From assembly GCA_012839845.1 (NCBI GenBank), contig DUMM01000046.1:1-34028 (forward strand): a DNA stretch of 34,028 bases, written 5' to 3'. Source of the stretch: Bacillota bacterium (GTDB lineage: Bacteria; Bacillota; Limnochordia; DTU087). Numbering within the stretch: position 1 is the first letter of the stretch; each line of letters opens with the position of its first letter. Positions 26,593-34,027 of the stretch are shown in pieces. The notes beneath the pieces were generated by a model. It saw nothing but the letters and a program-made list of their open reading frames with translations. It made no database searches and was not told the DNA's origin. Made by a program: the position numbers and the translations under genes.

Positions 26593-27912
26593 CTACAGCA
26601 ACCCCATTTTCTTTGCCGCGGCCGTCAGCTCATCCCGGAATTTGGGATGAGCAAGGCCGATGAGCAGCTTGGCCCGCTCCCGCATGGATTTGCCCTTCAG
26701 CTGGGCAACTCCGTATTCGGTGACAATGTACTGCACATCGGTCCTGGGAGTAGTGACTACCGCTCCCGGGCTCAAGGTGGGCACTATCCTGGATACCTCC
26801 CCTCCCTTGGCCGTCGAACAGAAAGCGATGATGGCTTTACCGCCCGGCGAGTCATAGGCTCCTCGGATAAAATCCAGCTGACCGCCGGTACCGCTGAACT
26901 GCTCAAACCCAACGGATTCGGCGCACACCTGGCCGGTGAGGTCTACCTCCAGAGCAGCATTGATGGCTATCTGTTGGTGGTTCTTGGCAATTACCGCCGG
27001 ATTGTTGACATACTGCACGGGGTGAGCCTCGATCATGGGGTTGTCGTCCATGAAATCGTATAGGCGCCGGGTACCGGCCGCAAAGGCAATGACTGCTTTG
27101 TACGGATGTATAGTCTTGCAGCGCCCGGTTGCTACCCCTGCCAGCATGAGGTCCATGAGGCCGTCGCTGAGCATTTCCGTATGAATGCCTAAGTCCTTGT
27201 GGTCCATAAGATACTTGATCACGGCGCTCGGTATACCACCGATACCCAGCTGCAGAGTGGCACCGTTGGGAATCATCTCGGCAATCAGCTGTCCTATCCG
27301 CTCCTCATCCGGCCCATAAGTGGGTACAGGCAGTTCTGGCAGGGGTGCCTCATTCTCCACAATGACATCGATCTCGTCTATGTGCAGAAAACCTGCTCCA
27401 TGGGTCCGGGGCATGTTGGGATTGACCTCTACGATAACTTGGCGGGCTTTGCGGCACACTTCCAGATTGTAATCTACGGATACCCCCAGGCTGAAGCAGC
27501 CGTGACGGTCCATAGGTGAAACAGCGGTAATAGCCGTATCTATCTCGCCCTTTTCAACAAAAATCCTGGGTGCTTGGTGGAACAGATTGGGTGTATATGT
27601 GGCCCTGCCGGCTTTGTAAGCTTTGCGGTCTACGCCGCTGAAAAAGTATGATTCCCAATTGATTTCCGGCGGCAGGTCGGGGCTCAAGACAGTATGCATC
27701 GTATGGGTCAGCGGCAGCATGGCATGCATGGTGATGTTTTTGAGCCTTCCTTCCCTGACGGCATTGGCAATAGCCGCCAGTAGTGCCGGAGGCTCGCCGG
27801 CGCCTAGAGGCTGAATAATTGTAGAATTGCTCTCTATCCTGGCTACCGCTTCTTCTGGCGTAGTTAGTTTGCTTTTGTACTTTTGCTGCACAGTTCGATC
27901 GATGATCAGCAA
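26593..27912 (-). CDS. Acetyl-CoA hydrolase/transferase family CoA-transferase (4-hydroxybutyrate/butyrate type)
   Basis: This enzyme transfers CoA between short-chain acids, for example acetate and butyrate or 4-hydroxybutyrate, a usual final step of fermentation. Starting at TTG 27912, which has GGGAGGAGG 7 nt upstream, it has 439 residues, the normal family length; the track start at 27981 adds an unrelated N-terminus. The substrate loop GIGGIPSAV (223-231) and HTEMLSDG (244-251), with the presumed catalytic Glu246, are present, as is SVGFEQFSGTGGQLDF near residue 340. The substrate cannot be fixed from sequence. A plausible promoter, TTGGTA-N16-GATAAT, lies 70 bp upstream. Confidence 0.9.
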   Translation of the reverse strand: MLIIDRTVQQKYKSKLTTPEEAVARIESNSTIIQPLGAGEPPALLAAIANAVREGRLKNITMHAMLPLTHTMHTVLSPDLPPEINWESYFFSGVDRKAYKAGRATYTPNLFHQAPRIFVEKGEIDTAITAVSPMDRHGCFSLGVSVDYNLEVCRKARQVIVEVNPNMPRTHGAGFLHIDEIDVIVENEAPLPELPVPTYGPDEERIGQLIAEMIPNGATLQLGIGGIPSAVIKYLMDHKDLGIHTEMLSDGLMDLMLAGVATGRCKTIHPYKAVIAFAAGTRRLYDFMDDNPMIEAHPVQYVNNPAVIAKNHQQIAINAALEVDLTGQVCAESVGFEQFSGTGGQLDFIRGAYDSPGGKAIIAFCSTAKGGEVSRIVPTLSPGAVVTTPRTDVQYIVTEYGVAQLKGKSMRERAKLLIGLAHPKFRDELTAAAKKMGLL

Positions 27913-27980
27913 TACAAGACCTCCTCCCTCGCCCGTCGGGCAAGACCTTCTGCGGCCTAAGTTTTTCCGGCATGCCAGCA

Positions 27981-28008
27981 ATTATCCTTAGTTTCTACAT
28001 GATACCAA
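27981..28008 (-). promoter_or_regulatory. Predicted promoter of the CoA-transferase gene
   Basis: On the minus strand, -35 TTGGTA (28003-28008), a 16-bp spacer and -10 GATAAT (27981-27986). The start is near 27973, about 60 nt before the TTG start codon. Confidence 0.5.
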
Positions 28009-29037: not shown

Positions 29038-29373
29038 TTGGCATTGGATGTCTACAAACTGCTGGATAAGGGAACCTGGACTCGCCCCACTGATAAAATG
29101 GCTGTCTACACGGAGATTCTCCCCGGTGATGTATGGGGAATCAGAGTGACGCTTTACAAAGATACCGCCCAGGTGGAAGCCATCGATGGGCCCAAGTGCT
29201 CCTGGTACAAGGCCCCGCGGGAAGTATCGGCCGAGGTTCATCCTCCCTCTTTGTGGGAGAGGATAAAAGGCATCACTTTCCAAGACAAGCTGATGGCGGA
29301 AGTAGCCAAAAAACGGGCGGTGGCTGAGGCGGAAAACCGCAAGCTCCGGGAAACTGCCCAGAGCCAGGATTAG
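29038..29373 (+). CDS. Hypothetical protein, 111 residues
   Basis: I do not recognise this family. The protein is soluble and charged, with a beta-rich first 70 residues (KMAVYTEILPGDVWGIRVTLY, then AQVEAIDGPKCSWYKAP) and a helical, Ala/Lys/Glu-rich C-terminal third that could be a coiled coil (EVAKKRAVAEAENRKLRE). A TGA directly before 29038 rules out a longer frame, so the start is TTG 29038 or TTG 29044; the only upstream purine run is GGGATGA, a weak site. The codon pattern and length support a real gene. Its stop overlaps the stop of the convergent FAD gene within TTAG. Confidence 0.6.
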   Translation: MALDVYKLLDKGTWTRPTDKMAVYTEILPGDVWGIRVTLYKDTAQVEAIDGPKCSWYKAPREVSAEVHPPSLWERIKGITFQDKLMAEVAKKRAVAEAENRKLRETAQSQD

Positions 29374-30875
29374 CTTAGGCCGGCCTCCCGGAGGATCAAC
29401 AGGGCGGCGTTTTTTCCCGACTGCATGGCACTGCTGATGCTACCAGAAGGGACATACCAGTGGCCGCACTGAAAGAGACCCAAGAGGGGCGTGGTCTCCC
29501 GTCTAAGCCAGGATACAGCCTGTACCGTAGGCAGCCAGCCCCGGCGGGAGCCTTTCCAGTTGCCGGTATAGCGGCGGTAGGTAATGGGCGTCGCCGCATC
29601 CGCCACCCTCACCCGCTTCCTCAGTCCGGGCAGGATCCGCTCAGCGGAAGCCAGCAAGGCCGCGGCAACCTCTTCCTTAAGGGCAGTATACTCCGGCCCC
29701 CGCATCTCGCTGATCGTTCGCCAGCGCTGTCGGTACTCAAAGGATACAGGGGCTCCTACAGCTATGCTGCGGTAGCCGGGCGGCGCGTGGAGGCTGTCGG
29801 CAAAGCTGTTATCTACTACGTTGATGAGCCAGTGGGTTGGGTCCTCGCTGTCCAAAGCGTCCATCAAGGCGGGACAGTAGGTTATGTGGTGGTACCATGA
29901 ACCCAGCTCGGTGACGCTGTCATCAACGCCGAGGGAAATCAGGAAGTAGGATGTCCAAGGCTCCATCTCTTTCAAATTCTCCAGGACGTGGTTCGGCACT
30001 GCACCTGCGGGCAGGAGCTCTTGGTAAAGCCGCATGGCATCGCAAGCGGCGACCACATAATTGCTGCCCACCGTTGCTCCTCCGGATAGCTTAACCCCAA
30101 CTGCTCGACCATCCTCCACCAAGATTTTCTCAACAGCGGTGCCGCAGCTAACTTCACCGCCGTGATCGGCGATCACCTGTCGGAGGCTGTCAATAATGGC
30201 CTGGCCTCCACCCACCGGATAGTGGAAGCGTCCTTCCTTAATCCAGCCGATGGTGGTCAGCAAGAGGAGAGAGGAGGCGCTGCCGACGGGGCACAAGGAG
30301 TAGAAAAAGGTGCGGACTTGAGGATCCCTAAACTCCTGCATTAAGAGGTCCTGGATGCTGATGCCCATATATTTGCGATACAGTCTCATGTTGAGAACGG
30401 CTGTCAAACCAATTCTCAGCTTCTCCCACCTGGTGAGCATGTCATTAGGCTTTCTCGGAGTGTCAGGTATCCGGCGGAACAGCTTGAGGGCATCTGCCGT
30501 TAGTCGCTGGATAGCCTCGGCCTCCTTGGGGAACAGCCGGCAAAGCTCTTCTACCCACTCCCGGATGTTGGAGGAAAGCAGCACATCGAAGCCGGGACCG
30601 ATCTGTCGGCTCCAGGGATCCAGCTGTCTGAAGCTGAGCGTCAGGTTCAGCTCCTCCCGGCAGGTAGAGATTGCTCCTCCAGGGTGGCAGCCCACGACCC
30701 ACTGCAGGGCCTGTTCGAACAAGAAATCTCCTCGGGAAAAAGCCCCAGCCAGGCCTCCCAGTTTATGCTGCTGTTCAAAGACGCCGACGTTCATCCCCGC
30801 CTTGGCCAGATAAGCAGCTGCCGTTAAGCCGGCAACTCCTCCGCCGATAACGATTGCATCGAAGTCCTTAGCCAT
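29370..30875 (-). CDS. FAD-dependent amine oxidase/phytoene desaturase-like oxidoreductase
   Basis: This 501-residue flavoprotein of the CrtI/CrtISO superfamily has the N-terminal FAD-binding motif IVIGGGVAGLTAAAYL (8-23) followed by FEQQHKLGGLAGAF, and the C-terminal FAD motif GLFQCGHWYVPSGSISSAMQSGKNAA. The real start is ATG 30875 (MAKDFDAIV), with AAGGAG 8 nt upstream; the track start at 30920 is too long. Relatives desaturate or isomerise carotenoids or oxidise other lipids, but no carotenoid genes are nearby, so the substrate is open. It lies 72 bp after the triple-XRE gene without a terminator between, so it may belong to the same operon. Confidence 0.87.
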   Translation of the reverse strand: MAKDFDAIVIGGGVAGLTAAAYLAKAGMNVGVFEQQHKLGGLAGAFSRGDFLFEQALQWVVGCHPGGAISTCREELNLTLSFRQLDPWSRQIGPGFDVLLSSNIREWVEELCRLFPKEAEAIQRLTADALKLFRRIPDTPRKPNDMLTRWEKLRIGLTAVLNMRLYRKYMGISIQDLLMQEFRDPQVRTFFYSLCPVGSASSLLLLTTIGWIKEGRFHYPVGGGQAIIDSLRQVIADHGGEVSCGTAVEKILVEDGRAVGVKLSGGATVGSNYVVAACDAMRLYQELLPAGAVPNHVLENLKEMEPWTSYFLISLGVDDSVTELGSWYHHITYCPALMDALDSEDPTHWLINVVDNSFADSLHAPPGYRSIAVGAPVSFEYRQRWRTISEMRGPEYTALKEEVAAALLASAERILPGLRKRVRVADAATPITYRRYTGNWKGSRRGWLPTVQAVSWLRRETTPLLGLFQCGHWYVPSGSISSAMQSGKNAALLILREAGLS

Positions 30876-30947
30876 CACTCTACTCCTTATCCCCCCGTCA
30901 TCACCAACCAGCGCCAACACAAGCAGCGGCCGAAGGAAGCTGTGCCT

Positions 30948-31739
30948 TTACTGCAGGCCGCTCCGCCTGAGCAGGCGTATAAACTGCAGCAAGAATTCAA
31001 ACTCCTTGTCTGTCATATCGCAGACCATCCTCAGTACCAGCTGCACTCTGGGTTCTTGCAGCAGCGCTCGGAGTTCAGGATTTAACCCCCTGATAATCTC
31101 CTCCGCTGAATCATCCTCCAGCAGCAAGTAACAGGGAGAAACATCAAGGCACTGGGCTATCCGCTTGAGAGTTGCCAGCGAAGCCTGGGTCTTGTTGTTT
31201 TCCAGCTGAGCGATGAATCCAGGAGTCACGCCTGCCATCTCCGCCAATTCCGCCCGGGAAAGCCCCAGCTGCTCCCGCAGCAAGCGCACCTTATCCCCCA
31301 CTGCACCGCAGTGAAAAACCTGAGACAGCGGCAGACTCACAATATCTGCCAACACCCGCAGGGTATCCACCGCCGGCTGTGCCTGCCCCCGCTCTATTTC
31401 GCTCAAATAACTAACCGAAATGCCCGCTGCCTCGGCGGCCTCGGTCAAGGACATGCCCTTTCGCTCCCGGGCAAGGCGCAGCCTGTCCCCCAGGGAGTCA
31501 CCGGTCAAGGTCTCGGCTTCTGCTTGCATACCCTCCTCCGGCAGCAGCGCATCCAGGGCAACGTTCAGCGCCGCCGCCAACGCCTCCAGTGTCTTAACTG
31601 AGGGCTGCTTCTTACCGTTTTCGATCTCGCTCAGATAAGACCGGGATAGGCCGCTGCGGCTTGCCACCTCCTGCAGCGTCAAGCCTCTCTTTTCTCTGAA
31701 TGTCCTGATCCTCTCGCCCAGCATCGCTGTTCTCTTCAC
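30948..31739 (-). CDS. Transcriptional regulator with three tandem XRE helix-turn-helix domains
   Basis: The 263-residue protein contains three Xre/Cro-type DNA-binding domains in a row: about 7-66 (SRSYLSEIENGKKQPS), 83-142 (SVSYLSEIERGQAQPA) and 147-207 (TPGFIAQLENNKTQAS), followed by a helical C-terminal tail (about 220-260, KEFEFLLQFIRLLR) probably used for dimerisation. Domains one and two are close to each other, suggesting internal duplication; the third is more divergent. One XRE domain is usual, two are less common and three are rare in my experience. The start is GTG 31739 overlapping the upstream Gfo stop by 4 bp (GTGA); ATG 31724 is an alternative. It probably regulates its own operon. 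Confidence 0.92.
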   Translation of the reverse strand: MKRTAMLGERIRTFREKRGLTLQEVASRSGLSRSYLSEIENGKKQPSVKTLEALAAALNVALDALLPEEGMQAEAETLTGDSLGDRLRLARERKGMSLTEAAEAAGISVSYLSEIERGQAQPAVDTLRVLADIVSLPLSQVFHCGAVGDKVRLLREQLGLSRAELAEMAGVTPGFIAQLENNKTQASLATLKRIAQCLDVSPCYLLLEDDSAEEIIRGLNPELRALLQEPRVQLVLRMVCDMTDKEFEFLLQFIRLLRRSGLQ

Positions 31740-32713
31740 CTAAGTCTCACTGGCCGGCCGGTCTTCGCCGATTCATAGGCACCAACTGCTACTTCCAGAG
31801 CCCTGATGCCGTCCAGGGCAGTAATGCTCGGTTCCCGGTCTTCCCGGAGACTATCGACGAATTCTTTAATTAAGTAGTAGTCCATATTTGCTCCCCAAAA
31901 GTCCCACTGGTAGGAAGGGTGAGCAAGGGCGATCCTCTCCATGCTCTGCCGCATCAGGTCTACCTCGGCTACCATGTCGGTACCCACCACTTCCATGTAA
32001 AGGTCACCCCAAGTATAAAAGCTGTCGGGCCTTGACCAGCTGGGATCGATGGTCATAAAAGCACCGTTGGCCAGCTCCAAAGTCAAAAGGCCGCAGTCCT
32101 CTGTGGGAATATCGTGGAAGCGGCGGTCCATCTCGCAATAGACCTCCACAAACTCCGTTTGGAAGATCCAACGGACCAAATCGGCTAAATGCACGGTGTG
32201 ATCGATGACAGCACCGCCTCCGGCAGCTTCGGGATCGGTAAAAAACCCACCGGGCATCTTGCCCCGGTTAGTACCTCGGATAGCCAGTATTCTGCCCAAG
32301 CGCCCTTCTTCGTAATGCTCCTTCAGCCGTTGCACCGACGGAATGAAACGGCAGGGAAACGCCATTTGGAATTTGATACCCGCCTCTTTGACGGCTTTCT
32401 CCATGGCATAGGCATCTTCAAGGGTTGTGGCGATGGGTTTTTCACAGAGGACGTGCTTCCCTGCGGCAGCAGCCATTTCCGTCAGCATCCTGTGGTCCCG
32501 GTTGGCTGACGTAATGACGACGCCGTCAACATCGGCCTTCAGCAGCTCAGCGAAGGATGGGAAATACCTGGTATTGAACTGCTGCGCCGCCTGTTTTCCC
32601 CGTTCCGAGTCTTCATCGGCCACCCCCACCAATTCCACATCGGGCAGTGAGCAGATGGCTGCGGCGTAGCTGTAGGCATGCATATGGGCAAAGCTCATGA
32701 TCCCCAATCTCAT
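31736..32713 (-). CDS. Gfo/Idh/MocA family oxidoreductase, variant dinucleotide motif
   Basis: This is a 325-residue NAD(P)-dependent sugar or inositol dehydrogenase-like protein. The catalytic CEKPI motif (about 93-97) is present and a C-terminal alpha/beta domain follows, with GGGAVIDHTVHLADLVRW carrying the usual Asp and His. The Rossmann glycine motif is altered: GIMSFAHMHAYSYA replaces GxGxxG, a variant I recall from a Gfo subgroup with unknown substrate. The start ATG 32713 overlaps the preceding Gfo gene by ATGA, and its own stop overlaps the XRE gene, so three genes are translationally coupled. Confidence 0.9.
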   Translation of the reverse strand: MRLGIMSFAHMHAYSYAAAICSLPDVELVGVADEDSERGKQAAQQFNTRYFPSFAELLKADVDGVVITSANRDHRMLTEMAAAAGKHVLCEKPIATTLEDAYAMEKAVKEAGIKFQMAFPCRFIPSVQRLKEHYEEGRLGRILAIRGTNRGKMPGGFFTDPEAAGGGAVIDHTVHLADLVRWIFQTEFVEVYCEMDRRFHDIPTEDCGLLTLELANGAFMTIDPSWSRPDSFYTWGDLYMEVVGTDMVAEVDLMRQSMERIALAHPSYQWDFWGANMDYYLIKEFVDSLREDREPSITALDGIRALEVAVGAYESAKTGRPVRLR

Positions 32714-33723
32714 CCTTCTACCCCCCTCTCTCCGCTAATTACCACAGGTTCACCAGTGGCAATTGATTCCAGCGCTGCCAAGGCTATATCCAGCGCCGCT
32801 AAAGCTTCTTCTCCTGTGATCAAGGGTTCTTTCCCCTGACGCAGGCAGTCCAGGAAATGCTCCAACTCCAGCGTGTACGGATCCTTGTCAAGGGGATTCT
32901 CCGGCACTGCAACACCTGGCGCCCCCGCCGAGCTTTCTTTCTGCACGTAACTGCGAAAACCGGCTGCCCTCTTGGAGTCATGGGTTAGAAGGCCCCTCTC
33001 ACAGGCAAACTCAAACTTGGTGCCGAAGCCGCCCAAGTTGAGCCAGCTGCCTTCAACGCTGCCGATGACTCCGCTCTTAAACCTGAGGCTTACCAGCACA
33101 TGTTCCAGGCGGTTGTACGCCCGGCCATAGGTACCTTTGGCATAGACCCTTTCCACATCGCCCAGGGTCCAGCGGAGGAAGTCAAAATCATGGATGATAA
33201 GGTCCAGCGTCAGACCGCCGCTCCAAGGGAAGTGGGCGTACCAATCCTGCCAGGCAGTGGGAAACCCCCCTCCGCCCCGGAAGGTGTAGACCGTTCCGAC
33301 CCTTCCCAGCTCTCCTGCCTGAATAATCTCCCGGGCGCGGCGGTACTCGGGGAAGAAACGGACAACATGGCCGACGCCGAAAGTCACCCCCGCTTTGCGG
33401 CAGGCCTCGATCATGGCTGCCCCATCTTCCCGAGTCCGGGCCAAAGGCTTTTCGCAAAAGACGTGCTTGCCCGCCGCAGCGGCCATTTCCACGTGCTCCC
33501 GGTGAAGATGGGTGGGAAGGCAAATATCCACCACATCCAGATCTTCGTTGGTCAACATGTCGGCCAAGGTGGCGTAGCCCCGTACTCCGTACTTTTGGGC
33601 CAGCCTATCCCGGCGATCCCTTTGAATGTCGGCGACTGCCACCAGCTCACAGCCGGGAATCTGCTGGTAACTGGCAGCATGGACGGTACCCATGGTACCA
33701 AGCCCGACAATGCCAACTCTCAC
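32710..33723 (-). CDS. Gfo/Idh/MocA family oxidoreductase
   Basis: This 337-residue NAD(P)-dependent oxidoreductase likely acts on a sugar, inositol or related polyol. It has a canonical Rossmann start VGIVGLGTMGTVHA (3-16), the catalytic CEKPL (about 94-98) and GGLTLDLIIHDFDFLRW (about 172-188) with the Asp/His pair. The start is GTG 33723, with GGAGGTG 8 nt upstream; an overlapping ATG is blocked at once by TGA. It lies 61 bp after the RNase HI gene and overlaps the second Gfo gene by 4 bp. A pair of unlike Gfo enzymes side by side often acts in one catabolic route, for example oxidation and later reduction of the same sugar. Confidence 0.93.
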   Translation of the reverse strand: MRVGIVGLGTMGTVHAASYQQIPGCELVAVADIQRDRRDRLAQKYGVRGYATLADMLTNEDLDVVDICLPTHLHREHVEMAAAAGKHVFCEKPLARTREDGAAMIEACRKAGVTFGVGHVVRFFPEYRRAREIIQAGELGRVGTVYTFRGGGGFPTAWQDWYAHFPWSGGLTLDLIIHDFDFLRWTLGDVERVYAKGTYGRAYNRLEHVLVSLRFKSGVIGSVEGSWLNLGGFGTKFEFACERGLLTHDSKRAAGFRSYVQKESSAGAPGVAVPENPLDKDPYTLELEHFLDCLRQGKEPLITGEEALAALDIALAALESIATGEPVVISGERGVEG

Positions 33724-33784
33724 ATTTCTTCACCTCCGTGAAGTCCTGAAACGGCCTGGAAGCTGTTCGCCTGAACATTCTTCA

Positions 33785-34027
33785 TTACTCCGTATTCTTT
33801 GAGCTGCAGATGTTTCCTCCATCCGGCGGCTGTCGATCGCCGCTAGAGCTCCCTCTGAGAGCCTGTCTGGCCAGGTAATCACAGCGGTTGTTGAGTTCAT
33901 CGCCGCCGTGACCCTGCACTTTTATCCACCTTACCCTATGGGTTCTAGTAAGTTCCAGGAGTCGCTTCCAAAGGTCTTGGTTTTCGACCGGCTCTTTACG
34001 GGAATTCAGCCAGCCGCTTCGCTGCCA
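33785..34027 (-). CDS. rnhA: Ribonuclease HI, C-terminal part (cut by right edge)
   Basis: RNase HI degrades RNA in RNA-DNA hybrids. The minus strand read from the right edge gives [20 protein letters not shown], then [25 protein letters not shown] and a stop at 33785-33787; 80 residues are visible. The GH loop and the final catalytic Asp (NRCDYLA) match RNase HI. The last 23 or so residues (after LRGSSSGD) are a family-unlike tail rich in Ser, Pro and Gly. The N-terminal half with the other catalytic residues lies outside the window. The ORF track misses it because the start is absent. Confidence 0.93.

Follow-up and report, generated by a model that had tools for sequence, protein, structure and literature searches.

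A widespread, apparently undescribed family of Bacillota regulators with three XRE domains in one chain

What kind of DNA site would be read by a regulator that carries three XRE-type helix-turn-helix (HTH) domains in a single chain? The question is raised by a gene in a 34,028-nucleotide stretch of Bacillota DNA, which we refer to as the window. The gene occupies positions 30948–31739 of the minus strand, from a GTG start codon at 31739 to a stop codon at 30948–30950, and encodes 263 amino acids in 263 codons; its start overlaps the stop of the preceding gene by four bases. A Pfam search found HTH_3 (PF01381) as three separate stretches in the product (E = 3.4e-51), with a score of 171.5 bits against a gathering score of 23, which places the protein in the XRE/HTH_3 superfamily.

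The structure of the regulator was modelled with AlphaFold2 from an alignment of 42 sequences (mean pLDDT 88). Each of the Pfam stretches corresponds to a five-helix XRE domain in the model. The first domain, D1 (31542–31721, minus strand; residues about 7–66, Pfam stretch 11–64), has helices at residues 2–17, 22–29, 33–40, 48–58 and 62–65 and the recognition helix SRSYLSEIENG; its assignment also draws on conservation in the family. D2 (31317–31496, minus strand; residues about 82–141) has helices at 83–93, 98–105, 109–116, 124–133 and 138–141 and the recognition helix SVSYLSEIERG, while in D3 (31122–31304, minus strand; residues about 146–206) helices are located at 147–157, 162–169, 173–180, 188–197 and 202–206, and the recognition helix reads TPGFIAQLENN. 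D3 is followed by four C-terminal helices that make up a tail (30951–31121, minus strand; residues 207–263) conserved throughout the family, possibly a dimerisation or sensing part. Residues 70–79 are modelled with low confidence, and with a pTM of 0.45 the placement of the domains relative to each other is not confidently predicted. The view of the initial annotation that the 263-residue chain holds three complete HTH domains is thus borne out by both Pfam and the model, and none of the three domains is degenerate.

The same annotation had described two of the domains as near duplicates, which overstates their similarity. Over 56 residues, identity between D1 and D2 is 50%; it is 35% for D1 and D3, and 33% for D2 and D3. 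When the domains of the window protein were compared with homologs outside its own clade, the nearest matches were to the same-numbered domain in 60 of 60 cases for D1, 55 of 60 for D2 and 60 of 60 for D3. Each domain thus has its closest match at the same position in distant homologs, which makes all three old, separate entities and rules out a recent tandem duplication as the origin of D1 and D2.

To estimate the spread of the family, a profile built from homologs of the window lineage and of Thermosediminibacter was run on 399 genomes sampled across the phylum (E <= 1e-25). Strong matches were found in 108 of the 399 genomes, with as many as five in a single genome and most covering the full length; two-domain proteins are a minority of the matches listed. 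At E <= 1e-60, 64 of 113 genomes of one class have a match. Thus, the triple-XRE layout, initially thought to be rare, is common in Bacillota. All three domains and the tail are present in 155 of 156 collected homologs, HTH_3 is matched by 42/42 members of a diverse family subset, and D3 is the most conserved domain across the family. The window protein itself has the three XRE domains and the C-terminal tail, co-linear over about 260 aa, and matches the profile over its full length.

The sole exception among the 156 homologs comes from a relative within the genus (G003; L028:2589-3164), where a 191-aa ortholog in the same operon lacks exactly D2 through a clean in-frame deletion. Known from a single metagenome assembly, it may be a genuine two-domain form or may result from misassembly. 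A divergent group of triple-XRE paralogs (L030/L010, L204, L205, L333-L335) adjoins cobyrinate-synthase-like and sirohaem-type genes, and its first recognition helix is weakened.

No paper on three-XRE regulators was found in the literature searched, although one may exist elsewhere. None of the solved structures matches the protein over its entire length, a fold search with the full chain gave single-domain-type matches only, and no fitting model was found in NCBIfam. Identities as an RstR repressor, TrbA or a Y4mF-type antitoxin were rejected, as the NCBIfam cut-offs are exceeded only by summing the three stretches; the regulator is 263 residues long versus 58–121 for these models, and its neighbours are dehydrogenase genes rather than a phage, conjugation or toxin-antitoxin setting. 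We conclude that the gene encodes a transcription regulator of a widespread and apparently undescribed Bacillota family.

A potential DNA site of the family became visible in the promoters of the regulator genes. The words ATACTAT/ATAGTAT are enriched upstream of triple-XRE genes (29 of 66 regions, compared with 25 of 474 in the upstream control set; P about 1e-15). In one large clade (the class of G246 and the G119 group; hereafter the direct-repeat clade) the regulator's own promoter has the form TTGAC-N4-TAGTA-N6-TAGTA-N6-TAGTA: three same-strand TAGTA repeats with exact 11-bp spacing span the region from the −35/−10 spacer to just beyond the −10 box. With a period of 11 bp, 26 of 129 non-redundant upstream regions score at least 13 out of 15, versus 0 of 645 shuffled regions. 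This period is the peak; a period of 8 gives 13, mostly the same sites in another register, and other periods give 0–2. A test independent of the motif, in which TTGAC (the −35 box) served as the sole anchor for 31 non-redundant regions from the clade, returned the same arrangement: [TA]AGT[AG] is most frequent at offsets 9, 20 and 31 (17, 19 and 17 of the 31 regions, respectively), and self-similarity is highest at a lag of 11 (z = 10.8).

In whole-genome searches of 12 genomes, a copy of the triple with 0–1 mismatches was located at the regulator's own promoter in every one; a single additional copy turned up elsewhere. When the −35 box was included and up to three mismatches were allowed, the own promoter was found in 19 of 22 genomes. 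Counts with two mismatches do not exceed those of a reversed-pattern control, and no wider regulon of the three-repeat site was called. The expectation of the initial annotation that such a regulator could read a long composite operator therefore receives strong, if indirect, support in relatives of the window protein, whose own promoters carry TAGTA three times with a spacing of 11 bp; the TAGTA triple is absent from the window genome at up to one mismatch. The related proposal of up to six half-sites is not supported: the direct-repeat operator has exactly three, consistent with one half-site for each of three domains, and no fourth TAGTA repeat was found in promoters of this clade. A palindromic class of operator in another clade leaves room for dimer binding.

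These observations suggest a mechanism to which we assign about an even chance. The three domains of one chain would lie along one face of the DNA, each in a successive major groove of the long promoter site and presumably paired one-to-one with the half-sites. Because three domains arranged in this way would cover the promoter along one DNA face, binding would be expected to block RNA polymerase and thereby cause autorepression; the window protein would control its own operon via a different operator. That the regulator binds the three-repeat element is something we infer from sequence. Two observations sit less easily with this mechanism. Within the direct-repeat clade the recognition helices of D1 and D2 are identical and that of D3 is different, though the three repeats look alike. 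No clean two-repeat site was found for the two-domain relatives examined.

It could be argued that the three-repeat element belongs to the promoter itself, or is bound by some other regulator, and has been conserved through kinship of the genes. The sequences do come from related species, the element overlaps the −35/−10 region, and the evidence that ties it to the regulator is sequence evidence. Yet the element is nearly unique to the regulator's promoter in whole genomes, its half-site reappears upstream of homologs from other clades in different arrangements, and promoters do not normally carry a triple repeat with an 11-bp period, which together make this explanation decidedly improbable.

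One of these other arrangements bears on how the protein contacts DNA. In a Thermosediminibacter-like clade, which is among the closest outside relatives of the window protein, a palindrome (TACTATAA..TTATAGTA) built from the same half-site as the TAGTA repeats overlaps the −10 box of the regulator's own promoter and suggests that the protein may bind as a dimer there. Counts with three mismatches do not exceed the control, and no wider palindrome regulon was called. The class of operator tracks the protein tree. XRE proteins usually bind DNA as dimers, and the nearest solved structures include SinR and C.AhdI. Along with the palindrome and the strong conservation of D3, this would fit an ordinary XRE dimer, in which each subunit would read an inverted repeat with a single domain, leaving its other domains mainly to aid dimerisation or make weak contacts. 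We regard such a dimer as unlikely for the family, given that all three domains are intact in 155 of 156 homologs and that the direct-repeat clade has three same-strand half-sites and no palindrome.

In the window, the regulator is the third gene of a four-gene minus-strand run. It is preceded by two Gfo/Idh/MocA-type dehydrogenase genes (32710–33723 and 31736–32713), assigned by Pfam, and followed by a gene for a FAD-dependent oxidoreductase (29370–30920; amine-oxidase/carotenoid-isomerase-like by Pfam). Neighbours among the first three genes overlap by four bases. Seven related genomes preserve the gene order of this operon, two copies of the cluster being present in one, G005. The longest open reading frame of the oxidoreductase begins with GTG at 30920, with an alternative start at ATG 30875. 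The 30876–30947 interval, initially proposed for footprinting as intergenic DNA, is a gap only if the latter start is used; with the GTG start the frame extends into it. In most relatives, as in the window, the operon is followed a few genes later by a CoA-transferase gene (26593–27981 in the window), of butyryl-CoA:acetate type by best match and below the curated cut-off.

The best TAGTA-triple score upstream of the window operon genes is 9 out of 15, and no triple with 0–1 mismatches occurs in the window genome (G000). The window protein lies outside the direct-repeat clade in the protein tree, and its recognition helices are unlike those of that clade. As the element is absent and the helices differ, the TAGTA site rule reaches the window protein by homology only. 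Most likely, the window regulator controls the four-gene dehydrogenase/oxidoreductase operon through a different operator. The best candidate for the control region of this lineage is a 51-bp block upstream of the operon (33770–33820, minus strand) that is kept in eight related sequences, and this block is possibly the operator itself.

Within the genus, the block contains GARTA-like words at intervals of about 9 bp. Direct repeats are not claimed there: the 9-bp self-similarity is 30 versus 9.8 expected, but the eight sequences are related and not independent, and the spacing in the window differs. An RNase H reading frame crosses the block in the window and appears to end earlier in relatives. 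The block reaches beyond the 33724–33784 interval that had been singled out initially. In four related loci (L024, L025, L026, L027) a short inverted repeat (e.g. GGCGTTGGTGCAACGCC, GGTGTCAGTTCGACACC, GGCGCTGCGGGAGCGCC) is located just upstream of the regulator gene, and its arms co-vary between sister genera; it is absent in the window genus, where the regulator gene overlaps the preceding gene.

The family also shares cysteines. Cys203 (31131–31133), located in helix 5 of D3, is nearly invariant, being kept in 151 of 156 homologs including the window protein, and a second cysteine is found at positions 238–243 of the tail in 127 of the 156 (residue 240 in the window protein). A thioredoxin gene lies downstream of the regulator in most loci of the direct-repeat clade and divergently upstream in the palindrome clade, while in a third clade CcdA- and TlpA-like genes are located nearby. 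This hints at redox control in the largest clades via cysteine and thioredoxin, a lead rather than a result. In its full form the idea would be that dimerisation or binding to DNA is switched by the D3 and tail cysteines and that thioredoxin is either the partner or the target; it could be combined with binding of three domains in successive grooves. Besides the conservation of both cysteines, the presence of thioredoxin or CcdA/TlpA-like genes beside the regulator in three other clades speaks for it. However, the window lineage has no thioredoxin gene near the regulator, the cysteine could have a structural role, and adjacency is not function; we consider a thiol-redox regulator quite unlikely.

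A more complete picture can be drawn, which we consider less likely than not. One chain with three XRE domains would read three same-strand half-sites one helical turn apart, at a site nearly unique in the genome; binding would be gated by the conserved cysteine via thioredoxin; and the site rule would have diverged between clades, with proteins of one build now serving different operons. XRE proteins normally reach long sites by dimerising one domain, whereas here three domains are present in one chain. If binding is confirmed, the family would provide a simple system for studying how specificity grows with the number of domains per chain, as well as a function and a testable operator for a type of gene present in roughly one in four of the genomes sampled from the phylum.

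Each domain of the regulator shares its fold and sequence family with single-domain Cro/C1-type (HTH_3) proteins such as SinR, ClgR, C.AhdI and DdrO. Those proteins have one DNA-binding domain per chain, in contrast to three and a short helical tail in the regulator. More than one XRE domain per chain is also found in Wolbachia Wmk, a prophage-linked protein with two such domains. The NCBIfam Wmk model matches single domains of the regulator weakly, and the regulator is far below its cut-off (62 versus 300 bits). Among the closest outside relatives are the triple-XRE proteins of Thermosediminibacter and its relatives (L039-L041), which have the same length, three domains, the tail and the conserved cysteine, are about 44% identical to the window protein and bear no NCBIfam family name; they differ in their gene neighbours, which encode thioredoxin and a metal ABC transporter, and in the palindrome at their promoter. 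A precedent, at the level of binding mode, for the use of several domains of one chain is the immunity repressor of cluster A mycobacteriophages (TipsytheTRex/L5; PMC9283540), in which one chain places two binding domains in adjacent major grooves of an asymmetric site. The asymmetric direct-repeat site, of the type expected for monomeric multi-domain repressors, is found in relatives of the window protein only. The phage repressor has two domains, the second being a variant HTH, and many sites along the phage genome, whereas the triple-XRE family has three full XRE domains and, in those relatives, a nearly unique site at its own promoter.
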